DNA of 64,000 nt from an uncultured Psychroserpens sp. (GTDB taxonomy: Bacteria; Bacteroidota; Bacteroidia; Flavobacteriales; Flavobacteriaceae), in NCBI GenBank assembly GCA_947488655.1, contig CANKZZ010000004.1:248001-312000 (forward strand), read 5' to 3'. The notes beneath the pieces are model-generated. The model was not told where the DNA came from and made no database searches. It worked only from the letters and a program-made list of their open reading frames with translations. The position numbers were made by a program, and so were the translations under genes. Below are positions 16,709 through 27,901 of this stretch, in pieces (positions within the stretch are counted from its first letter, which is position 1; each line of letters begins with the position of its first letter).

Positions 16709-16737
16709 GCAAGTTTTTATTTTAAATCACATCTAAA
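16709..16737 (+). promoter_or_regulatory. copy A of repeated promoter-like motif GCAAGTT-N14-CATCTA (upstream of ECF sigma)
   Basis: GCAAGTTTTTATTTTAAATCACATCTAAA; same two boxes and 14-nt spacer as four other sites. Confidence 0.8.
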
Positions 16738-16767
16738 AATAATTAAGCATTAGATAACCAACTTTTT

Positions 16768-17346
16768 TTGACCGAAACTGTATTTATAGAGCAATTAAAA
16801 AATCAAACTAGGGCAGCTTATAGTAAGCTGTTAGATGATTATGAGCAAAAGGTTTTTGCAACCTGCATTTCATTTGTGCCTAATAGGGAAGATGCAGAAG
16901 ATATTGCTCAAGAGGTTTTTGTAGAAGTCTTTAAATCTATTAAAGGCTTTAAAGAGAATTCATCATTATCAACATGGATTTATAAAATTGCAACTAATAA
17001 ATGTTTAGAATTTATTAGAAAACGAAATACAAAAAAGCGCTTTGCATTTTTACAATCCTTATCAGGAAATAACTTTGCAATTGATAAAACTAATTACTTT
17101 ACTGAAATGAGTCATCCTGGTATAATTTTAGAAAATAAAGAAACTAGTGAAACCTTGTTTTATGCTATAAATCAATTACCAGAGTCACAAAGAATTGTTT
17201 TTACACTACATAAAGTAGATGGAAAGAGTTACCAAGAAATTAGTGAGATCATAGAGAAAAGTGTATCATCTGTTGAGTCATTAATGTTTAGGTCTAAAAA
17301 GAATTTACAGAGTTTACTAGAAAATTTTTATAAAAATGAGAACTGA
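16768..17346 (+). CDS. ECF-type RNA polymerase sigma-70 factor (TTG start)
   Basis: NREDAEDIAQEVFVEVFKSIKGFKENSSLSTWIYKIATNKCLEFIRKRN; sigma4 KSYQEISEIIEKSVSSVESLMFRSKKNL. Confidence 0.93.
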   Translation: MTETVFIEQLKNQTRAAYSKLLDDYEQKVFATCISFVPNREDAEDIAQEVFVEVFKSIKGFKENSSLSTWIYKIATNKCLEFIRKRNTKKRFAFLQSLSGNNFAIDKTNYFTEMSHPGIILENKETSETLFYAINQLPESQRIVFTLHKVDGKSYQEISEIIEKSVSSVESLMFRSKKNLQSLLENFYKNEN

Positions 17347-17347
17347 T

Positions 17348-17376
17348 GCAAGTTTTTTAAAGTTTTTGCATCTAAA
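17348..17376 (+). promoter_or_regulatory. copy B of repeated promoter-like motif
   Basis: GCAAGTTTTTTAAAGTTTTTGCATCTAAA; 14-nt spacer; CATCTA ends only 10 nt before the next ATG. Confidence 0.75.
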
Positions 17377-17384
17377 AGTATAAT

Positions 17385-17699
17385 ATGGAAACAAATAAAA
17401 ATATAACTAAAAAGGTTGATTTAGTTTTAGATAGTGCTAATACTATTATAAAACCTAACGTATCTCCTTTTTTTAAGGACAAAACATTACAGCGTTTATT
17501 TGCTGAAAAAGAAGTTAAAAAGAGTGCTTGGAGTTGGTTTAATCCTAAACTACAATTAGCAACATTAGCAGGTGTTTTGTTTTTAAATATTTATGCCATA
17601 AAGGAGATACAAAACACAAATTATAATCAATCGATTTCTAGTTTTGCGCAAAATTATGGTTTAATTTCTAGTGAAGAGTCTTCATTATTTAATCTTTAA
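17385..17699 (+). CDS. small single-pass membrane protein, candidate anti-sigma factor
   Basis: Sits between ECF sigma and sensor-like gene; cytoplasmic-like N-term then one hydrophobic segment (LATLAGVLFLNIYAI). Confidence 0.55.
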   Translation: METNKNITKKVDLVLDSANTIIKPNVSPFFKDKTLQRLFAEKEVKKSAWSWFNPKLQLATLAGVLFLNIYAIKEIQNTNYNQSISSFAQNYGLISSEESSLFNL

Positions 17700-17701
17700 T
17701 T

Positions 17702-18166
17702 ATGAAAAAAAATAATATACTTTATTTATTGTTAATCGTACTTATTATAATGAATGGATTTTTTCTGTTTAATTATTTAGGTAAACCAAATCATGATGAC
17801 TCAATAAGGCCTAGAAACTTTATAGCTAAGCAATTAGATTTTAATGAAGCTCAATTAAAAGAGTTTGAAATACTAGAGGCTAAACATCATAAAAAAATGA
17901 GAAGTCTTGGAGACAATGTAAAGTCTATAAAAGATGACTTATTTAAAAAAATTACAGCAAACTCTGTAAATCAAGCTGAAGTTGATAGTTTGATTACCAG
18001 AATTTCTAATAAAGACTTTCAAAAAGAACGAGAAATGTTTTCTAGATTGAGAAGTATCTACGAATTGTGTGATGAGGAACAAAAAGAAAAATTTTCTGCC
18101 ATATTAATAGATGCAAGAAAATTTGATAGACCAGATAGGCCTGAGAAACCTCATAAACCAGAGTAA
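17702..18166 (+). CDS. Spy/CnrX-like periplasmic (heavy-metal sensor type) protein
   Basis: N-terminal TM anchor; FIAKQLDFNEAQLKEFEILEAKHHKKMRSL ... helical LTXXQ-like layout. Confidence 0.65.
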   Translation: MKKNNILYLLLIVLIIMNGFFLFNYLGKPNHDDSIRPRNFIAKQLDFNEAQLKEFEILEAKHHKKMRSLGDNVKSIKDDLFKKITANSVNQAEVDSLITRISNKDFQKEREMFSRLRSIYELCDEEQKEKFSAILIDARKFDRPDRPEKPHKPE

Positions 18167-18184
18167 CATCTTTAAATATTTTAA

Positions 18185-18216
18185 AAAAAAGCCTTCATTT
18201 TTGAAGGCTTTTTTTT
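18185..18216 (+). terminator. intrinsic terminator
   Basis: AAGCCTTCA-TTTT-TGAAGGCTT followed by T-run. Confidence 0.8.
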
Positions 18217-18241
18217 GTGTTTTATTTAACAAAAGGCGACA

Positions 18242-18269
18242 CAAGTTATTTAATAGTATGTCATCTAAA
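18242..18269 (+). promoter_or_regulatory. copy C of repeated promoter-like motif
   Basis: (A)CAAGTTATTTAATAGTATGTCATCTAAA; 14-nt spacer. Confidence 0.78.
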
Positions 18270-18294
18270 AGTATATAACATAAAATTTAAGAAG

Positions 18295-18582
18295 ATGAAA
18301 AGTAACACATTAAAAACAGTAGTATTAGTATTTGGCTTAGGACTATTTATGTCAAATTATTCTTTTGGACAGCAAGGTCGTCAAGAAAGAAAAGAACCTC
18401 CAACTTTTGAGCAGTTATTAAAAGAAATGGATAAAAACGAAGACGGTAAACTTGCAAAGGATGAAGTTAAAGGACCTCTAAAAGATAGTTTTACTGAGAT
18501 AGACACAAATGAAGATGGCTTTATTTCAGAAAAAGAATTAAAAGATGCACCAAAACCAGAACGTAAAAAAAGAAATAAATAA
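18295..18582 (+). CDS. secreted EF-hand protein (two EF-hand loops)
   Basis: Signal peptide MKSNTLKTVVLVFGLGLFMSNYSFG; loops DKNEDGKLAKDE and DTNEDGFISEKE. Confidence 0.85.
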   Translation: MKSNTLKTVVLVFGLGLFMSNYSFGQQGRQERKEPPTFEQLLKEMDKNEDGKLAKDEVKGPLKDSFTEIDTNEDGFISEKELKDAPKPERKKRNK

Positions 18583-18615
18583 AATTTGATTGTTTGGTTA
18601 ATAGTTTGGTTTTTT

Positions 18616-18645
18616 AAAGGCTTCGTGAGACATCATGAAGCTTTT
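18616..18645 (+). terminator. hairpin/terminator with GCTTCGTGA...TCATGAAGC core
   Basis: AAGGCTTCGTGAGACATCATGAAGCTTTT. Confidence 0.6.
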
Positions 18646-18711
18646 AATTACCAAAAGTTTTAAGATTAAAAATCCACGCATGACAGTAATTATTAAAATA
18701 AAAATCTCAAC

Positions 18712-20133
18712 ATGAAATTAATTAAAAATAACATCAATACTTTTTTCATCGTGCTTGTTTTTGGCACATCATTATTAACTTTTAATGCGTGTACTAATGA
18801 TGATGATATTATCCTCACTGAGGAAGAAACAGAAGAATTTGATGATTCAGACTTTGAAGCTACAGATTGGACTACAGAAACACACAGTAAAGATGCAGAT
18901 CCAAATTTTGATGAGGTCTTTGAAGATAATGCAGTAAAAAGACTCGATATCGTAATAACTGAAGCACGTTGGCAAAATATGCTAGATGATATGACTGATC
19001 TTTATGGAGCATTTGGAGTTGGTGGACAACCTGGCGGATTGACAGAAACTGACGAAAATCCAATTTTTGTGCCTGCAGAAGTATTCTATAATGGAGTAGA
19101 ATGGTATAGAGTAGGTGTTCGTTTTAAAGGGAATTCTAGTTTACAAACTAGTTGGCAAAATGGCATCTTAAAACTATCATTTAAATTAGATTTTGATGAG
19201 TTTGAAGATGATTATCCTCAAATAGATAATCAGCGTTTTTACGGTTTTAAAAAACTAAGTCTTAAAAATAATTTTGATGACAAATCGATGTTACGCGAAA
19301 AAGTAGCTACAGATGTATTTAGAAATGCAGGATTAGCAGTTTCTCATACTGCTTTTTATACATTATATGTAGATCATGGTGATGGACCTCAATATTTTGG
19401 TTTATATACTCTAGTAGAAGAAGTTGATGATACAGTAATAGATGAGCAGTTTTCAAGTGACGATGGTAATTTATACAAACCAGATGGCGATGCAGCAAGT
19501 TTTGCAGCAGGTACTTATGATGAAGATGAATACGTTAAGAAAACGAACGAAGATAAGGCAGATTTTAGTGATGTGTCTAATTTATTAGCAGTTATTAATG
19601 ACGAAACAAGAATAACAGATGCTGCAACTTGGAGAACAAGTTTAGATGCTGTTTTTGATACAGATGTGTTTTTAAAATATTTGGCAGTGAACACAGTAAT
19701 TCAAAATTGGGACACCTATGGTAAAATGACACATAATTATTTTCTATATAATAATCCAGAAACGAGTAAGTTAACCTGGATCCCATGGGATAATAACGAA
19801 GCATTACAACTTGGCAAAAGAGGTGGTTCGTTACCATTAGACTTTTCTGGGTTATCTGCATCAGAATGGCCATTAATAGAACATATGTATGAAGATGAAG
19901 TATACAAAACACAATATGATTTTTATGTTCAAGACGTGGTTGATGATGCATTTAATGTCAATACAATACAGTCTTTATATGCAACATATTCATCTTTAAT
20001 TGAGCCTTATGCAACCTCTGAAATTACTGGTTATACCTTTTTAAATAACAGTTCAGAATTTCAAATTGCAGTAAACGAATTGAACTCACATGTGGTCTCT
20101 CGTGCAGCTGCAGTAAGTGATTATTTGAATTAA
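18712..20133 (+). CDS. CotH kinase family lipoprotein
   Basis: Lipobox LLTFNAC; YGFKKLSLKNNFDDKSMLREKVATDVFRNAG, YFGLYTLVEEVD, NWDTYGKMTHNYFLYNNPETSKLTWIPWDNNEAL. Confidence 0.9.
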   Translation: MKLIKNNINTFFIVLVFGTSLLTFNACTNDDDIILTEEETEEFDDSDFEATDWTTETHSKDADPNFDEVFEDNAVKRLDIVITEARWQNMLDDMTDLYGAFGVGGQPGGLTETDENPIFVPAEVFYNGVEWYRVGVRFKGNSSLQTSWQNGILKLSFKLDFDEFEDDYPQIDNQRFYGFKKLSLKNNFDDKSMLREKVATDVFRNAGLAVSHTAFYTLYVDHGDGPQYFGLYTLVEEVDDTVIDEQFSSDDGNLYKPDGDAASFAAGTYDEDEYVKKTNEDKADFSDVSNLLAVINDETRITDAATWRTSLDAVFDTDVFLKYLAVNTVIQNWDTYGKMTHNYFLYNNPETSKLTWIPWDNNEALQLGKRGGSLPLDFSGLSASEWPLIEHMYEDEVYKTQYDFYVQDVVDDAFNVNTIQSLYATYSSLIEPYATSEITGYTFLNNSSEFQIAVNELNSHVVSRAAAVSDYLN

Positions 20134-20164
20134 ATAGAAAAAGTTTTTTTGATTAGTTAGTGTT

Positions 20165-20197
20165 AAAAGGCTTCGTGAGCGATTGCGAAGCTTTTTA
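20165..20197 (+). terminator. hairpin/terminator with GCTTCG...CGAAGC core
   Basis: AAAAGGCTTCGTGAGCGATTGCGAAGCTTTTT. Confidence 0.65.
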
Positions 20198-20238
20198 AGT
20201 AAGCCTAGAAGTGTCAAATACTCTAAATGTTGTTAGGT

Positions 20239-20988
20239 ATGAAAATATTCAGAAAAATTAGAAGAACATTATTAGCTTCAGGAAAAACTAAAAGCTATTG
20301 TATGTATGCTTTTGGTGAAATTGTATTAATTGTGATTGGGATTTTAATTGCTTGGAAGATTAATAGTTTAAATGAAATTAGAAAAAATAAAATAGTTGAG
20401 TTAAAAATATACCAAACCTTAATACAAGAGTTAGATGCAAACTCGAAAGTTTTAGACTCTTCAATAACTAATTACACTAGTAACTTAAAAACCATACGAA
20501 CAACTATAAAAAGTATCGGTTTGAAGCCAGAGGAATTTACCGATAAAATTAGAGAAGGAATAGTTAACGTTAATTATAAACCAGTACAATTGCATAATGG
20601 AGCAATAAATTCTATTAACAGCACAAACAAGTTTGAATTTATAGAAAGTGTACTGTTAAAAGATTTGATAGCATCTTATCCTAATGAATTAGACAATTTT
20701 GCAACTCAAGAAACAAAAATTAAAAATATTGTAATTAATAGATTGCAACCAGCAATAGAAAAACATGTGTCATTAATTGATATTCTTTCAGATCGTGATT
20801 TAGAATATAAAAGAATTCAAAACATTTTAGAAGAATCAAATTATGAGGAGTTGTTAAATAGTCGAGATTACCAAAATGCTTTGGTAGATAGACTTTTACA
20901 AACCGAAAATCAATTAGAAATTGCTAAAAGTTTGAAAGAGAAAACACAAATTATGGCTATAAAACTTAACAAAGAGTTAGGTGGTTAG
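20239..20988 (+). CDS. DUF6090-like membrane protein
   Basis: MKIFRKIRRTLLASGKTKSYCMYAFGEIVLIVIGILIAWKINSLNE N-terminal signature. Confidence 0.7.
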   Translation: MKIFRKIRRTLLASGKTKSYCMYAFGEIVLIVIGILIAWKINSLNEIRKNKIVELKIYQTLIQELDANSKVLDSSITNYTSNLKTIRTTIKSIGLKPEEFTDKIREGIVNVNYKPVQLHNGAINSINSTNKFEFIESVLLKDLIASYPNELDNFATQETKIKNIVINRLQPAIEKHVSLIDILSDRDLEYKRIQNILEESNYEELLNSRDYQNALVDRLLQTENQLEIAKSLKEKTQIMAIKLNKELGG

Positions 20989-21020
20989 CTGTGTTGCATT
21001 AAAAAATTAAATAACAAACA

Positions 21021-21049
21021 GCAAGTTTTTAAACAATATCACATCTAAA
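21021..21049 (+). promoter_or_regulatory. copy D of repeated promoter-like motif
   Basis: GCAAGTTTTTAAACAATATCACATCTAAA; 14-nt spacer. Confidence 0.8.
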
Positions 21050-21066
21050 GATTAAATACAAAACAA

Positions 21067-21588
21067 ATGAAAAATACAAACTTAAAAATGTCAATCACAA
21101 TTTTTTCAATGTTACTATGCTTTGGTCTTTTTGCACAAGGATCTCCAAGAGGTGGACAAGGAGGAAGAGGTGGACAAGATAGATCTCAAAGAGAAACACC
21201 AAGTGCTTCAAAAATTATGGAATTATTAGATACAAATAATGATAACAAAATTGATAAGGACGAAGCGTCACAGGATAAACGCGGAAAAATTTCAGAAGAT
21301 TTTGACGAAATTGATGCTAATACAGATGGTTTTATTGATTATGAAGAGCTAGATGCTTCATTAAAAAATAGAAAACCGAAAGAAATTTCCGCAGAAAAAA
21401 TTATTAAGCAAGTAGATGATAATGGTGATGGTACATTAAATGAGTTAGAAGTTGCAGCAAAAAATAAGCGACAACTTTTAAAAGAGTTTGAAAACATAGA
21501 TCTCAATAAAGATAATGAGCTCGATTTAGAAGAATTAAAAGCATTTTACTCAAAAAGGAATAAGAAAAAAGGTAAACGAAAAAATTAA
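21067..21588 (+). CDS. secreted EF-hand protein (four EF-hand-like loops)
   Basis: DTNNDNKIDKDE, DANTDGFIDYEE, DDNGDGTLNELE, DLNKDNELDLEE; signal peptide plus Gly/Arg-rich linker. Confidence 0.85.
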   Translation: MKNTNLKMSITIFSMLLCFGLFAQGSPRGGQGGRGGQDRSQRETPSASKIMELLDTNNDNKIDKDEASQDKRGKISEDFDEIDANTDGFIDYEELDASLKNRKPKEISAEKIIKQVDDNGDGTLNELEVAAKNKRQLLKEFENIDLNKDNELDLEELKAFYSKRNKKKGKRKN

Positions 21589-21609
21589 ACTAGTACGTAT
21601 AAATAAATC

Positions 21610-22722
21610 ATGAAAAACGTAACACAAGTCATCGGTTTTACAGCTTTATTATTAGTCTTAAGTTGTAACACTCACAAAGGTAATACAGAGCATTCTCATG
21701 ATGGCGAAAGTTCGCATAGTCATAATGATTATTTTGGATCATATACTTTAAATGATAGTAATTATGAGACTCAAACAACGGTAACCTTAAATGGAGATAC
21801 GAGAACAATGGTAACTAATGCGTTGCCTAATCATAAAACTGGAGATTTTCCTAACTCAGGTAATCCCAATACTATTTCAGCTCAAAATAAAACCTATACG
21901 TTTCCTGTAACTCCTAAATATACAGGACAAGCGCAATGGGTTAGAGAGCCAGGAGTTGCCCTAAACGGTATTAAATTTGAACCAGGCACTGCTGAGGTTG
22001 TAGTTTGTGATACTGGAGAAAATTATAGGGTAGAAGCATTACAAGATCTCATAGATTTAGGCTTAGATTTTAATCATGCACATGTACAGCCAACAGGAGC
22101 GTATCATTATCATGGTACACCAACATCTGTAATTGAAAAATTTGATACTGGAGAAGATTTAGTTCATATTGGTTTTGCTCATGATGGTTTCCCTATGTAT
22201 TACTCAAAAAGTGGTAAATATAAACCTAGTTTTATAGCTGTTAATGGAGATAGAGAAGGTGAAGACTGTACTTATGACAATCCACATCATTCTATTGATG
22301 TTTCGGTTGGAGGCCATCATGATGGTACCTTCACTTCAGATTTTGAATTTGTAGAGGGTTCTGGAGATTTAGATGAATGTAACGGAATTACATTAAACGG
22401 AAAATACATGTATTTAGTAACCGCAGAGTTTCCTTATGTAAGTCGTTGTCTCATGGGAGAAGTTTCTCAAGAAGAGCTTAAAGGTCCTCCAAGAGATCAG
22501 CAAGGTCAACCTGGAGGAGCACAAGAAGGACGTCCAACTGTTGATCAACTATTTGAGCGAATGGATGAGAATAACGATGGTAAATTATCACCTAAAGAAG
22601 TTAAAGGACCATTAGCAGAAAATTTTTTAAAAGTTGACGCTAATAATGATGGCTATCTAACTAAAGAAGAATTAAAAAATATGCCAAAACCGCAAGGTCA
22701 AAACACTAGAAGGCGAAATTAA
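21610..22722 (+). CDS. YHYH-domain lipoprotein with C-terminal EF-hand pair
   Basis: Lipobox LVLSCN; GAYHYHGTP; C-term DENNDGKLSPKE, DANNDGYLTKEE. Confidence 0.85.
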   Translation: MKNVTQVIGFTALLLVLSCNTHKGNTEHSHDGESSHSHNDYFGSYTLNDSNYETQTTVTLNGDTRTMVTNALPNHKTGDFPNSGNPNTISAQNKTYTFPVTPKYTGQAQWVREPGVALNGIKFEPGTAEVVVCDTGENYRVEALQDLIDLGLDFNHAHVQPTGAYHYHGTPTSVIEKFDTGEDLVHIGFAHDGFPMYYSKSGKYKPSFIAVNGDREGEDCTYDNPHHSIDVSVGGHHDGTFTSDFEFVEGSGDLDECNGITLNGKYMYLVTAEFPYVSRCLMGEVSQEELKGPPRDQQGQPGGAQEGRPTVDQLFERMDENNDGKLSPKEVKGPLAENFLKVDANNDGYLTKEELKNMPKPQGQNTRRRN

Positions 22723-22735
22723 TTTTAAATAATGC

Positions 22736-22764
22736 GCAAGTTATTTTTTAAAACCGCATCTATA
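22736..22764 (+). promoter_or_regulatory. copy E of repeated promoter-like motif
   Basis: GCAAGTTATTTTTTAAAACCGCATCTATA; 14-nt spacer. Confidence 0.78.
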
Positions 22765-22796
22765 GATATAACACAAACTAATACAAACAATAAAAA

Positions 22797-23900
22797 ATGA
22801 AAAATTATTTTAAACTATTTTTAGTCATCTTATCATTGTCTACAGCGTTCTATGCTTGTTCAAGTGATGATGACTCTAGTAATGGAAACATAAACACAGA
22901 TAATCAAGCTCCATCTACATTCTCAGTTACGGTAAGTGCAACAGCAGCGACAGGAGCAACGATAAACTGGACGCAAGCAACAGATGCAGATGGCGATACC
23001 GTTACTTACAATGTTAATTTAGAAGACGCTGAAGTGGCAAGTAATTTATCGGTTCAAAACTATACATTTTCTGCACTAAGTACATCAACAACTTATTCTG
23101 GTACAGTAATAGCACAAGATGGCAATGGAGGAGAGACCACCTCTACATTCAGTTTTACAACAAGTGATGAAACTACTCCATCAACGCTGCATTTAGCCTT
23201 TGCAGAATTTGATGTTGATAATACAGATATTATGTTAAGTGGTACAAATGTGGTTATAGAAACTAACGGTTTACCAAATCATACCTCACCATACTGGTCT
23301 AATACAGTCTCTAGATCCATAACTGGTCCTAATGGTAATACAATGACAACTGTTTCAGACTCTAACCATCCACTATGGGTAGAACCAACGGTAACATCAT
23401 ATGATCAAATGGCACCAGGAAATATTGATGATTTTAATGGTTCATATTCATTAACAGTGTCTGCAAATCCTCAATTAGCTGCAAATTCTACATCAACAGG
23501 ACTAGGTGCTATAGGAATTTCAATTTCAGGGTCTGTAATTTATAATGATGAAGAAGGACCAAACGTGCCTTTAGACAATGCAGTTGGATCTTTAGATTAT
23601 ACTGCAGCGCACACTGGTCCGCAAAGTTATCATTATCACTTAGAGCCAAAAGCATGGTCTAATGATGATGAAAATCTCATTGGGATTATTGCAGACGGAT
23701 TTTTTCTCTACGGGAGACAATGTAACTCCACCAACGATTATCCTACAAATTTGGATGCATCTGGAGGACATACAAGTACAACACAGCATAGTGAAGGCGA
23801 ATCAGAATATCACTACCATATTCAAAACGAATTATATTTAAATCAATACTATATTTTATTTCCAGGTGACTATCAAGGAACTCCAAGTAATATTCAATAA
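22797..23900 (+). CDS. fibronectin-III / YHYH-domain lipoprotein
   Basis: Lipobox TAFYACS; FN3-like APSTFSVTVSATAATGATINWTQATDADGDTVTYNV; SYHYHLEPK and EYHYHIQNE. Confidence 0.82.
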   Translation: MKNYFKLFLVILSLSTAFYACSSDDDSSNGNINTDNQAPSTFSVTVSATAATGATINWTQATDADGDTVTYNVNLEDAEVASNLSVQNYTFSALSTSTTYSGTVIAQDGNGGETTSTFSFTTSDETTPSTLHLAFAEFDVDNTDIMLSGTNVVIETNGLPNHTSPYWSNTVSRSITGPNGNTMTTVSDSNHPLWVEPTVTSYDQMAPGNIDDFNGSYSLTVSANPQLAANSTSTGLGAIGISISGSVIYNDEEGPNVPLDNAVGSLDYTAAHTGPQSYHYHLEPKAWSNDDENLIGIIADGFFLYGRQCNSTNDYPTNLDASGGHTSTTQHSEGESEYHYHIQNELYLNQYYILFPGDYQGTPSNIQ

Positions 23901-24495
23901 AACAGCTTTAAGTATATGTCTGTTAATAATTGTTTCTTGTAAAAAAGAAACGCAAAAACCTATGGCACTTGCAGAAGTTGCCATAAGTACAACAGATTAT
24001 ATAACAGCAAATAAGAGTGCGTTAGAGTTAAAACCAAATTTAGGGTTGATGTATCATAATAATCAACCCTTTACAGGTGTTTCACAAGTTTTTTATTCTG
24101 AAATGGTAAAGGCTGAAACTATAGAATATAAAAATGGAAAACGTCACGGACTTTATAAAAAATGGTTTCCAGATGGAACATTAAGTTTTGAAGCAACATA
24201 TCAAAATGGGCTTCAACAAGGCACTGCAAAATCATGGTGGAGTAATGGGAATTTGCGATCTATTGCAAACTATGATAAAGGTATTGTAAACGGTGTGCAA
24301 AAACAATGGTATAAATCTGGAAACATTTTTAAAGAAATGAATATTTTAAATGGTAAAGAAGAAGGGATGCAAAAAGCCTGGAGAGAAAACGGAAAAATTT
24401 ATAATAACTACGAAGCAAAAAACGGACGCATTTTTGGATTAAAACGTGCTAGTCTATGCTTTCAATTAGAAGATGAAATTGTACAGAATAATTAG
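23866..24495 (+). CDS. MORN/YwqK-repeat lipoprotein
   Basis: Lipobox LLIIVSC; NGKRHGLYKKWFPDGTLSFEATYQNGLQQGTAKSWWSNGNLRSIANYDKG repeats; overlaps upstream and downstream ORFs. Confidence 0.78.
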   Translation: MTIKELQVIFNKTALSICLLIIVSCKKETQKPMALAEVAISTTDYITANKSALELKPNLGLMYHNNQPFTGVSQVFYSEMVKAETIEYKNGKRHGLYKKWFPDGTLSFEATYQNGLQQGTAKSWWSNGNLRSIANYDKGIVNGVQKQWYKSGNIFKEMNILNGKEEGMQKAWRENGKIYNNYEAKNGRIFGLKRASLCFQLEDEIVQNN

Positions 24496-25135
24496 TTGTT
24501 TAATGGTTTTAGTTTTGGCGTCTTGCAATGAGGCAACAAAAAAAGAAAAATCCAGTCGAGTAGATACATTACCGTATTATGCTGAGGCTTCATTTACACC
24601 AAATTGGTTAGTTGGAGAATCTAATGATGTTAATAGTTTTCATAAAATCCCATCATTTAGTCTAACAAATCAACTAGGAGAAACCGTTACAGAAAAAACA
24701 TTTGAAAATAAAATTTATGTTGCCGATTTTTTCTTTACAACTTGTCCTGGAATTTGCCCTAAGATGACCGCTAATATGAAGGTGCTACAAGATGAGTTTT
24801 TAGATGATAATGAGGTTTTGTTATTGTCGCACTCGGTAACTCCAGAGACAGACTCTGTTGCTGCTTTAAAACAGTATGCAGATAATAAAGAGGTTATTAG
24901 TGATAAGTGGCATTTAGTAACAGGAGACAGAAAACAAATTTATGATTTAGGTAGGCAATCTTATTTTGCTGAAGAAGATTTAGGCGAAATTAAAACCGAA
25001 GACGATTTTCTACATACCGAAAACTTTGTACTCATTGATAAGAAAAGACATATTAGAGGTATTTATAACGGTTTAAATAAAACTGCTGTGCAACAATTAA
25101 TAGCAGATATAAAAACATTACAAAAAGAAGATTAA
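24473..25135 (+). CDS. SCO1/SenC family lipoprotein
   Basis: FFFTTCPGICPKMTANMKVLQ (CxxxC) and conserved downstream H (SHSVTPETDS). Confidence 0.9.
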   Translation: MKLYRIISCLMVLVLASCNEATKKEKSSRVDTLPYYAEASFTPNWLVGESNDVNSFHKIPSFSLTNQLGETVTEKTFENKIYVADFFFTTCPGICPKMTANMKVLQDEFLDDNEVLLLSHSVTPETDSVAALKQYADNKEVISDKWHLVTGDRKQIYDLGRQSYFAEEDLGEIKTEDDFLHTENFVLIDKKRHIRGIYNGLNKTAVQQLIADIKTLQKED

Positions 25136-25227: not shown

Positions 25228-26340
25228 ATGAGAAGACTCTTGGTTTTAGTATTAGGCCCAATTATTATAATTGGATTAGGAAGTTGTGGATTATTTAGAG
25301 TTAATAAGTTTAAATACGAACCTACGGTTAAAAAGATTCCTAAACTAGACATTGAAATTTTAATGCAGGATTCTACTTTAAATGTGAGAGCTTTAGAAGT
25401 TGACCAAGCAGGAACAGGTATTTTTGCGACTTCAAATGGTAAGGTTGGTTTTATTTTTACATCTAAATATTTAAGCTTAGATTATACTAATACAGAAACC
25501 TTAGAATGTCAAATTTTCTATGATTTTAATTATTCTAAAGATTCTGTGCCTAACTTTAGATCGGTTGCAAAAACGAAGAAGCAATTTTTTGCATTAGCTA
25601 TTGGTAGTCCAGCAGCAATGTTTACTGTTGCCAATGATTCGATTTGGCCTATAGTTTATAGAGAAAACCATCCAAAAGCTTTCTACGACTCTATGGAATT
25701 TTGGAACGACGATGAAGGTATCGCGATAGGTGATAGTACAGATGGCTGTTTATCTGTAATCATTACAAGAGATGGAGGTAAAACATGGACAAAATTAACT
25801 TGCGACCAATTACCAAAAGGTATTGAAGGAGAAGGAGCTTTTGCAGCAAGTGATACTAATATTGCAATTGTAGGCAACAAAACTTGGGTTGCCACCACAA
25901 CAGGAAGAATTTACTATTCAGATGATAAGGGAGTTACATGGACAACTGTAAATACACCAATAGTTAAAAATAAAGACACCGAAGGTATCTATTCTATAGA
26001 TTTTTATGACGAGAATAATGGCTTTGGTATTGGAGGAGATTATACAAAACCAGCAGATAGTACTGCTAATAAGATAAGAACCAAAGATGGTGGTAAAACG
26101 TGGCAGCTTGTCGCGGAAAACCAATCTCCAGGATATAGAAGTTGTGTACAATATATCCCTAACTCAAATGCGCAAAAATTAGTTGCGATAGGCTTTAAGG
26201 GTATTGATTATTCAAACGATGCTGGTGATTCTTGGACTCATTTAAGTGACGAAGGTTTTTACACGATTAGATTTTTAAATGATAGTGTCGCTTATGCTGC
26301 AGGAAGTAAAAGGATAGCAAAACTTACATTTAAGGACTAA
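25228..26340 (+). CDS. BNR/Ycf48-like repeat lipoprotein
   Basis: Repeated DGGKTWTKL, DDKGVTWTTV, DGGKTWQLV, NDAGDSWTHL motifs; N-terminal lipobox. Confidence 0.75.
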   Translation: MRRLLVLVLGPIIIIGLGSCGLFRVNKFKYEPTVKKIPKLDIEILMQDSTLNVRALEVDQAGTGIFATSNGKVGFIFTSKYLSLDYTNTETLECQIFYDFNYSKDSVPNFRSVAKTKKQFFALAIGSPAAMFTVANDSIWPIVYRENHPKAFYDSMEFWNDDEGIAIGDSTDGCLSVIITRDGGKTWTKLTCDQLPKGIEGEGAFAASDTNIAIVGNKTWVATTTGRIYYSDDKGVTWTTVNTPIVKNKDTEGIYSIDFYDENNGFGIGGDYTKPADSTANKIRTKDGGKTWQLVAENQSPGYRSCVQYIPNSNAQKLVAIGFKGIDYSNDAGDSWTHLSDEGFYTIRFLNDSVAYAAGSKRIAKLTFKD

Positions 26341-26342
26341 AT

Positions 26343-26375
26343 AAAAAAAGAAGCCATTAGGCTTCTTTTTTTTTT
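26343..26375. terminator. bidirectional intrinsic terminator between convergent genes
   Basis: AGAAGCC-ATTA-GGCTTCT flanked by A and T runs. Confidence 0.8.
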
Positions 26376-26823
26376 AATTCTTACTCTTTTTATACTTGTC
26401 TTTACGCTTTTGAAACTCATCAAGCATTTGCCTTTTAAATTCATCTTCGGCAACTTTAAGCGCTATAATCTTTTTTGCAGGTATAGCTGTAAGTAGACTC
26501 TCTATTAAATCTGTTTTTAGGTTTTGTTGTTCTTCTTCAAAAGCTAAATAATCTATAAGTGCTTTTTTTGCTTCAGCTTCAGTTAGAGATTCTAATTTTA
26601 GATTGTGTCGTTTCTCTCTGGCAGTATGACGAAGCATATCTTTTTCTTTTTCGTAAGCATTATAGATAGGCCAAAATTTTTGAGCCTCAGTCTCGCTAAG
26701 TTCTAGTCGCTCTGTTAGAAAAGCCACTTTTAAAGCTTTTATGCGTTCTCGTTTATCTTTATCTTGTGAGTAACCAGTAAAGGTTAGTGCACAAACAAAT
26801 AGGGTTAAAATTATTTTTTTCAT
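26374..26823 (-). CDS. secreted helical protein (sensor-like, third gene of sigma module)
   Basis: Signal peptide; FLTERLELSETEAQKFWPIYNAYEKEKDML; position parallel to 17702 gene. Confidence 0.5.
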   Translation of the reverse strand: MKKIILTLFVCALTFTGYSQDKDKRERIKALKVAFLTERLELSETEAQKFWPIYNAYEKEKDMLRHTAREKRHNLKLESLTEAEAKKALIDYLAFEEEQQNLKTDLIESLLTAIPAKKIIALKVAEDEFKRQMLDEFQKRKDKYKKSKN

Positions 26824-26827
26824 GAGT

Positions 26828-27328
26828 TTATTCTATTAAAAAATCTTCTAGATTAGAACTATTTAATAAATAGTCTTCTAGTTGATCTTGGGAAATTCTA
26901 TTATCTATAAAATTATCTTTGCTAAGTTCTTCATAAGTTAATAACTCAGATAAATCATAACTTGTGTAATTTTCATCTACTAAATAATCTTCAATCGAAG
27001 CAGTGTCTATAGAGCTAAATGTTAGTTCATCATTAGTGTTGTAAAATACATTAAACATTAAAATTATAGAAGCTGCAATTGTTAAAGCATACGCTATATT
27101 TCTACGTTTAAACAATGGAATTACTTTTGTCTCTTGTTGTTTAGTAACGTTAGAAATTATTTTATTATCTAAAGTATTAAAATAAGCGTCAGGAACATTA
27201 AAGCCAGATGAATTAACTTTATCTTTTAGACGTACTTCACCAAGAATTTGCTCTTCTACTTGAGAAAAGTAATCCTTAGGAACTTTAAATCCTGAGGTGT
27301 TAATATGGTCTAATTTTTTCTGTTTCAT
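26828..27328 (-). CDS. single-pass membrane protein, candidate anti-sigma factor
   Basis: Between sigma gene and secreted sensor-like gene; one TM (IAYALTIAASIILMFNVFY); duplicated SGF(K/N)VP.. YF motif. Confidence 0.55.
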   Translation of the reverse strand: MKQKKLDHINTSGFKVPKDYFSQVEEQILGEVRLKDKVNSSGFNVPDAYFNTLDNKIISNVTKQQETKVIPLFKRRNIAYALTIAASIILMFNVFYNTNDELTFSSIDTASIEDYLVDENYTSYDLSELLTYEELSKDNFIDNRISQDQLEDYLLNSSNLEDFLIE

Positions 27329-27358
27329 AGTTATAAGACTAAATATTTGGTCATTGGT

Positions 27359-27901
27359 TTAATCTTGAGTTAAAAATGCTTCAATTTTTTTTACAGCTAT
27401 ATGGTAGGAGGCTTTGAGTGCACCTTCTGTAGTATCTAATATATCTGACATGTCTTTGTATTTAATATCTTCAAAATATCTCATATTAAAAACAAGTTGT
27501 TGTTTCTCTGGTAAAGTCGCAATGGCTTGTTGCAATTTTAATTGTATATCGTCACCTTCAAAATAAACATCTGCTTTTAAATTTGTGATAGATTGTTGCT
27601 GCAATTCTTCCGAAGAAAAATTAATGCGCTTTGCATTTTTAGAGAGATGCGTGAGTGATTCGTTAGTGGCAATACGATACATCCATGAAAATAATTTACT
27701 ATCTTCTTTAAAGTTTTGAATGTTTTTATACACTTTAATAAAGGTGTTTTGCAAAACATCATCTGCATCATCGTGAGATTTCACAATATGACGAATATGC
27801 CAATATAAACGCTCCTTATAAAGTATAAGTAACTCTTTATAAGCAAGATCTTTTGTGTTTGGCTGCTTGAGGCGTTGTATTAAAAGTTGTTCGTTGTTCA
27901 A
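27359..27901 (-). CDS. ECF-type RNA polymerase sigma-70 factor
   Basis: SHDDADDVLQNTFIKVYKNIQNFKEDSKLFSWMYRIATNESLTHL; sigma4 DMSDILDTTEGALKASYHIAVKKIEAFL. Confidence 0.93.
   Translation of the reverse strand: MNNEQLLIQRLKQPNTKDLAYKELLILYKERLYWHIRHIVKSHDDADDVLQNTFIKVYKNIQNFKEDSKLFSWMYRIATNESLTHLSKNAKRINFSSEELQQQSITNLKADVYFEGDDIQLKLQQAIATLPEKQQLVFNMRYFEDIKYKDMSDILDTTEGALKASYHIAVKKIEAFLTQD

Follow-up and report, generated by a model that had tools for sequence, protein, structure and literature searches.

Genes and promoter copies of the locus

We analyzed a run of 11 genes at positions 16709-25135 of a 64,000-nucleotide window (the whole stretch of DNA considered here) from an uncultured Psychroserpens sp. 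(CANKZZ010000004.1). The run opens with an extracytoplasmic function (ECF) sigma factor, an anti-sigma-like membrane protein and a periplasmic sensor, and continues with products of the EF-hand, CotH, DUF6090, YHYH, YwqK and SCO types. Five exact copies of a two-box, ECF-type element, CAAGTT-N14-CATCTA, lie in the locus, each shortly upstream of a gene. Judging from the distribution of these sites here and in relatives, the sigma factor almost certainly reads this element before the sigma gene itself, before the gene for the anti-sigma protein and before three groups of genes encoding secreted proteins. The features of the locus, in coordinates of the window, are as follows.

16710-16735, +, P1, putative sigma-dependent promoter; exact match, 32 nucleotides before the sigma gene
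16768-17346, +, ECF sigma factor; PF04542 and PF08281 above cut-off, no domains besides sigma-70 regions 2 and 4
17349-17374, +, P2, putative promoter; exact match before the anti-sigma gene
17385-17699, +, anti-sigma-like protein of 104 amino acids with a single transmembrane segment; no Pfam match, role assigned by position
17702-18166, +, CnrX/Spy-fold periplasmic sensor (LTXXQ) with an N-terminal transmembrane anchor; PF07813 above cut-off, Foldseek, conservation
18182-18217, +, terminator-like hairpin after the sensor gene, ending the sigma/anti-sigma/sensor block
18242-18267, +, P3, putative promoter; exact match before the gene of EF-hand protein 1
18295-18582, +, EF-hand protein 1, small and secreted, with two loops and a basic tail; PF00036/PF13202
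18712-20133, +, CotH-family kinase-like lipoprotein, acidic after the lipobox Cys; PF08757, 234 bits
20227-20988, +, DUF6090-like membrane protein, accessory; under the Pfam cut-off, in 12 of 83 loci
21022-21047, +, P4, putative promoter; exact match before the gene of EF-hand protein 2
21067-21588, +, EF-hand protein 2, secreted, with four loops and an Arg/Gly-rich N terminus; Pfam search
21610-22722, +, YHYH lipoprotein with two C-terminal EF-hand loops; PF14240, 179 bits
22737-22762, +, P5, putative promoter; exact match before the fn3+YHYH gene and core triad
22797-23900, +, fn3+YHYH lipoprotein, acidic after the lipobox Cys, first gene of the core triad; 33.5 bits
23866-24495, +, MORN_2/YwqK-like lipoprotein, second triad gene; PF07661, reading frame overlapping the first triad gene
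24473-25135, +, SCO1/SenC lipoprotein, third triad gene; PF02630, 91.5 bits
25173-25201, +, terminator-like hairpin after SCO, ending the regulon

Pfam searches and a check of the open reading frames recovered every component that a first-pass annotation of this DNA had placed here, coordinates included. Its view that nearly all products are exported holds for those downstream of the sensor, each of which bears a lipobox or signal peptide (judged by eye), with the exception of the DUF6090-like protein. The eight EF-hand loops (2+4+2) are spread over three proteins, and the hydrophobic 19-mer of the anti-sigma-like protein is present in 73 of 77 orthologues.

In the whole 3.6-Mb genome the element occurs exactly five times, always within the locus and on the coding strand. 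With one mismatch allowed, the genome yields 19+9 matches (the five exact copies included) versus 14+28 for the reversed pattern, and those outside the locus are no commoner than the control. A two-mismatch scan of the window gave chance-level results, so only exact or matrix matches are used below; a scan for sigma-70-type promoters matched the shuffled level and was uninformative. Because P3 falls between the two candidate starts of EF-hand gene 1, the most likely start is the ATG at 18295 and not the GTG at 18217. Neither the shared promoter nor the second sigma/sensor module described below had appeared in the first-pass annotation.

The shared promoter and its reach in relatives

In a sample of 151 Flavobacteriaceae genomes, nearly each from a different genus, a close orthologue of the sigma factor (at least 59% identity; next best 46%) is present in 19. 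A YHYH gene lies within ~8 kb of it in 18 of the 19, and the presence and absence of the two genes are associated across the 151 genomes (Fisher p = 6e-11). The co-occurrence in other genomes that the first-pass annotation had put forward as a check on its proposal is thus observed.

For the promoter itself we compared 83 non-redundant Flavobacteriaceae loci, made up of 80 named loci and those of the sampled genomes with redundancy removed. These hold 214 exact copies of the element versus 0 of the reversed pattern. The spacing between the boxes is essentially 14 alone, as spacings of 12, 13 and 16 give 0 matches and 15 gives 2, and the sites share bases that were not selected for, namely C at −1 (93%), T at +7 (89%) and A at +27 (97%) and +28 (94%). 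A promoter matrix was applied by leaving out one locus at a time; relatives of the tested locus stay in training, so the resulting counts are not fully independent, and the negative sets are clean. The matrix places a promoter before 75 of 77 anti-sigma genes, 42 of 49 EF-hand 1 genes and 15 of 20 EF-hand 2 genes, as well as before 37/75 fn3-YHYH, 11/27 YHYH-EF and 8/30 CotH genes and a minority of sigma-labelled genes (33 of 92, paralogues included). It finds 0 before methyltransferase (54), MORN (73), SCO (72) and sensor (78) genes and before those of the second sigma module; MORN and SCO follow the YHYH gene in what appears to be one operon.

Sites outside the locus required more care. Eighteen sigma-positive genomes contain 59 exact matches, 47 of them in the locus, and the 12 off-locus 12-base matches compare with 18 in the control, which is not above background; 20 sigma-negative genomes likewise show background only (7 matches vs 8 in the control). 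Because the off-locus 12-base matches stand at control level, we used a stricter motif to claim members in trans. This pattern, CRCAAGTT-N14-CATCTAAA, gives 140 matches versus 2 for its reverse in 50 genomes with the sigma locus, and 13 of them fall outside the locus, nearly all before genes for secreted proteins, mostly of regulon families. They precede YHYH genes (L251, L252, L255, L256; such labels denote individual loci), CotH genes (L253, L257), a sulfatase gene (L250), genes for large surface proteins of the type IX secretion system (T9SS) kind (L248, L258, L259), a gene for an exported protein without a Pfam match (L249) and, in Polaribacter (L254), both an EF-hand/CotH pair and a VTC-DUF4956-DUF2490 set. 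A looser pattern adds plausible sites before genes for a YHYH protein (L196), a MauG-like enzyme (L197), a PAP2/haloperoxidase-like protein (L195) and a sulfatase (L198). The promoter counts across the locus, the 83 loci and the 50 genomes argue for a real, local and self-controlled sigma regulon, and the sharing of the promoter in trans is the strongest argument that these families belong to one system instead of being passengers. The suggestion of the first-pass annotation that the genes form one envelope system under the sigma factor is therefore upheld by the shared promoter, the conserved linkage and the regulon members elsewhere in the genome.

Beyond the regulon terminator lie a gene for a BNR/YCF48-like (kelch-like) beta-propeller lipoprotein (25228-26340, +), present in half of the loci, and a second sigma/anti-sigma/sensor-like module (26374-27901, −), which is convergent with the regulon and adjoins it in ~40 of the 83 loci. 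The second module lacks CAAGTT-N14-CATCTA. Both were considered as regulon members and rejected, as the promoter precedes 1 of 42 kelch-like genes and 0 second modules.

These flanks bear on the simplest alternative, that the genes are neighbors by common descent and do not form a functional unit. The same RNA methyltransferase-like gene, BNR/kelch-like gene and second sigma module do surround the locus in many relatives. The linkage nevertheless persists through different gene orders and strands in Flagellimonas/Allomuricauda, Polaribacter and Hyunsoonleella, the promoter is shared in trans while the flanking genes are without it, and other classes of the phylum have the triad as well. Synteny alone is thus largely refuted and highly improbable.

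The conserved core of the output is the triad YHYH-MORN/YwqK-SCO, whose order is identical in 71 of 71 contiguous triads; the first-pass annotation had not singled out this near-invariant set. Both CotH, found in 30 of the 83 sigma loci, and EF-hand 1, found in 47, are accessory. Genomes that lack the sigma factor often retain the triad, sometimes along with EF-hand 1 and CotH, and their triads carry no motif. Many of these sigma-less sets adjoin a LytS-like kinase and a LytTR regulator (L205, L208, L210-L213, L078, L284; the LytTR domain is Pfam-confirmed for L078 only), which suggests that the apparent regulator is exchanged whereas the output module stays conserved. The triad also recurs outside Flavobacteriaceae, in other orders and classes of Bacteroidota. 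In L276 and L278 it stands directly behind a diverged sigma (~40% identity)/anti-sigma/sensor operon, and in the distant Bacteroidota locus L150, where the sigma factor is 48% identical, the exact promoter lies between sigma and anti-sigma and the YHYH gene is divergent from sigma. In L079 (5932-10293) a diverged sigma/anti-sigma/sensor operon is followed by MbnP, a MauG/MbnH-like di-haem enzyme and a T9SS-tailed YHYH protein. Two distant sigma/anti-sigma/sensor loci (L153, L154) keep the −35 box CGCAAGTT next to a −10 box of CGTCAA or CATCAA, suggesting that the promoter drifts along with its sigma factor. The most distant Chitinophagaceae loci (L151, L152, L155, L157, L158), which we left out of the counts, have the sigma factor and sensor, no motif and no YHYH gene.

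Sensor, output proteins and possible function

The AlphaFold2 model of the sensor has a mean predicted local distance difference test score of 89.5, and a Foldseek search with it against the PDB returns CnrX at ranks 1-9 (TM-score by target 0.73-0.83, probability 1.00), ahead of CpxP, Spy and ZraP. A full-length profile alignment with CnrX of plasmid pMOL28 gives E = 4.9e-5 for that single comparison. Together with the single-transmembrane anti-sigma-like protein, this membrane-anchored CnrX-fold sensor completes the pair of parts expected of a CnrYXH-type front end. The residues conserved in the sensor are H62 (97%), M66 (81%) and C123 (88%); across the phylum, the YHYH-linked sensors examined keep H62 and most keep M66.

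Within the triad, SCO retains C91, C95 and H181, the CXXXC and distal His at copper-ligand positions, in 72 of 72 locus orthologues, and it aligns with BsSco (1on4/1xzo), distal His included. It is thus predicted to be a SCO1/SenC-type protein with intact copper ligands that could bind or transfer copper. The fn3-YHYH family, whose YHYH (PF14240) domain scores over the cut-off and contains the YHYH motif, has six invariant His residues (H162, H279, H281, H325, H339, H341), to which the phylum-spanning YHYH set adds H272, D267, D300 and D320. A PDB search with the YHYH profile produced T-cell-receptor noise alone; because of this, and because Foldseek was dominated by fn3, we claim no fold for the domain. 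We also observed a second class of YHYH lipoproteins in the regulon, marked by a GPWCP motif and repeatedly followed by an exported protein of the DUF6702 type (L251, L255, L256, L086, L095, L101, L208, L213).

The CotH protein aligns with the solved Bacillus CotH (5jd9) over both conserved Asp residues, and at least 80% of 26 locus CotH proteins retain D334 and D360. Mutants D228Q and D251A of CotH are inactive (PMC7821199), and by alignment we take D334 and D360 to be the probable equivalents of these catalytic residues. Where a lipobox was recognized, at least two acidic residues directly follow its Cys in 20 of 24 CotH and 51 of 62 fn3-YHYH proteins, and less frequently in SCO and MORN. 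A surface-lipoprotein export signal is known in Bacteroidota, SDDFE in F. johnsoniae (PMC5080379), and the acidic residues suggest that CotH and YHYH sit at the surface while SCO and MORN face the periplasm.

These parts point to a regulatory circuit. The architecture makes it quite probable that the single-transmembrane protein tethers the sigma factor and that a signal received by the periplasmic CnrX-fold sensor leads to its release. At rest, the anti-sigma-like protein would keep the sigma factor at the membrane; a ligand set or a redox residue in the region of H62/M66/C123 would let the sensor perceive its signal, and the sigma factor would then be freed. On the evidence of sequence alone, the sigma factor almost certainly drives the anti-sigma gene, a negative feedback that appears nearly universal, and often its own gene as positive feedback, plus the secreted output set. 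That output would form a surface and periplasmic module around a core of YHYH, probably a surface lipoprotein with a His-rich putative metal site, YwqK/MORN, and SCO as the copper or thiol partner. The EF-hand proteins and CotH, and in relatives VTC/DUF4956, sulfatase and MauG-like haem enzymes, would be optional attachments.

We on balance favor a nearly self-contained envelope ECF sigma regulon, copper or soft-metal output included, as the best explanation of the locus as a whole. That the output binds, loads or redox-handles a soft metal, with copper as the best guess, falls just short of an even chance when taken by itself. A soft metal or redox signal is suggested by the His/Met/Cys set of the sensor, the copper ligands of SCO, the L079 operon and the MauG/MbnH-like enzymes of relatives, some of which bear the shared promoter.

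Several observations weigh against this reading. We found no known gene for copper uptake or efflux in the regulon, and a 2013 paper remarked that data connecting MbnP homologues to copper were lacking (PMC3621798). The Foldseek E-values for CnrX are weak (about 0.01, such as 7e-3), though the probability is 1.00. The metal ligands of CnrX, which we take to be H42, H46, E63, H119 and M123, fall on R38, A42, E59, R115 and I119 of the sensor, positions not conserved in a ligand role; L276/L278 have lost C123, and for both reasons the sensor is perhaps not metal-binding. The CnrX-like sensor of the first-pass annotation therefore stands as to fold and fails as to metal sensing in the CnrX sense, given the five unconserved positions and the lack of an efflux pump in the regulon; plausibly, the block still works like a CnrX-type module. 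Finally, Foldseek with the YHYH model found no PDB match beyond the fn3 domain, and YHYH domains of jumbo phage tails have been predicted, from conserved His and Asp residues, to be Zn-dependent hydrolases (PMC7824862).

This last prediction opens a second explanation, in which the same regulon would be induced by envelope damage and deliver Zn-dependent YHYH hydrolases of the cell wall or surface polymers, with SCO as a thiol-disulfide partner that keeps them folded or reduced. The invariant D267, D300 and D320 alongside the YHYH His set would suit such enzymes. Sensors of the Spy/CpxP type report envelope stress, which fits this scheme as well, and in relatives a sulfatase and Cthe_2159-type proteins join the regulon. 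The hydrolase role is itself a prediction, however; the triad SCO retains the distal His required for copper, and behind the promoter we saw neither a lysozyme or amidase gene nor a classic envelope-stress gene. We consider this alternative unlikely.

The first-pass annotation had instead proposed that CotH phosphorylates secreted EF-hand and YHYH proteins as part of an envelope metal or Ca stress response; read as a calcium/phosphate surface system, this model might also be linked to polyphosphate via VTC/DUF4956. Both catalytic Asp positions are kept in CotH, an EF-hand gene immediately precedes 18 of 30 CotH genes, and in Polaribacter the promoter is found in trans before both the EF-hand/CotH pair and VTC-DUF4956-DUF2490. 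The EF-hand proteins have basic tracts, and CotB, a spore substrate of CotH, is phosphorylated within a serine-rich repeat region, SKRB (PMC7821199). However, 53 of the 83 sigma loci have no CotH and about a third of the long loci have no EF-hand gene (present in 52 of 75), so neither defines the system. Within loci the two are modestly and weakly significantly associated, an EF-hand gene being present in 25 of 30 loci with CotH and in 27 of 45 others (p = 0.04). As an account of the whole locus this is improbable; the narrower idea that CotH phosphorylates the basic, secreted EF-hand proteins is possible but doubtful. CotH is also grouped with VTC, DUF4956 and DUF2490 genes at L254:3572-7622, L112, L115, L123, L134, L138 and L216, which may hint at a polyphosphate link.

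Returning to the copper-oriented regulon, its most far-reaching form would be a Bacteroidota-wide surface copper machine. YHYH would then represent a novel type of metal-site lipoprotein that SCO serves, under a CnrX-fold switch with new His/Met/Cys ligands, and CotH would decorate Ca-binding proteins in some species. We regard this extension as quite unlikely.

Comparison with known systems

A literature search on YHYH, CotH, SCO1, VTC, ECF/CnrX and copper in flavobacteria, mostly outside subscription journals, found no description of the system, in agreement with the first-pass annotation, which knew of none for the combination. The sequences of ~80 Flavobacteriaceae genomes delimit a complete regulon, including its promoter, its boundaries and the members outside the locus, centered on YHYH, a domain with a predicted function only, and on Gram-negative CotH kinases. 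Because one promoter motif marks the members, the signal and the functions of YHYH, the YwqK-type lipoproteins and secreted CotH can be tested together.

The closest known relative of the front end is CnrH-CnrY-CnrX of Cupriavidus metallidurans, which responds to nickel and cobalt. The ECF sigma factor is 22% identical to CnrH, and both systems have a small single-transmembrane anti-sigma or anti-sigma-like protein and a membrane-anchored helical sensor, for which CnrX is the best solved structural match. The order here is sigma-anti-sigma-sensor, however, and not YXH, and the anti-sigma gene has its own promoter. The output of Cnr is a resistance-nodulation-division (RND) efflux pump, whereas here it consists of secreted YHYH, SCO, EF-hand and CotH proteins, and no RND efflux system was encountered among the locus genes or the regulon members of relatives. 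A 40-amino-acid protein annotated as 'YHYH domain-containing' adjoins cnrYXH on pMOL28 (L217:22905-23027) and probably belongs to the unrelated short YHYH_alt family. The sensor also resembles Spy, CpxP and ZraP, in that its LTXXQ Pfam match is above cut-off and a profile search retrieves Spy (E = 2e-5). It differs from them in being anchored to the membrane N-terminally and encoded behind a sigma/anti-sigma pair, and the fold search favors CnrX.

On the output side, the copper-linked MbnP-MbnH, MopE-SACCP and CorA-CorB pairs of methanotrophs combine a secreted partner with a MauG-like di-haem enzyme, as do the loci of some relatives. In the Psychroserpens locus the partners are instead YHYH, SCO and YwqK, and MbnP and the MauG-like enzyme, neither of which is among its genes, are met only in relatives' loci. 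The YHYH proteins match PF14240 over the cut-off and share its His/Asp set, yet the domain was earlier noted in phage tails and diatoms, whereas here it is central to an operon that also encodes YwqK and SCO. CotH shares family membership and both catalytic Asp positions with the Bacillus spore-coat kinase and differs from it in being a lipoprotein, acidic after its lipobox Cys, within a sigma regulon alongside EF-hand and YHYH proteins. The front end is thus a variant of the CnrYXH kind, and the output set and promoter attached to it appear to be undescribed in the literature searched.

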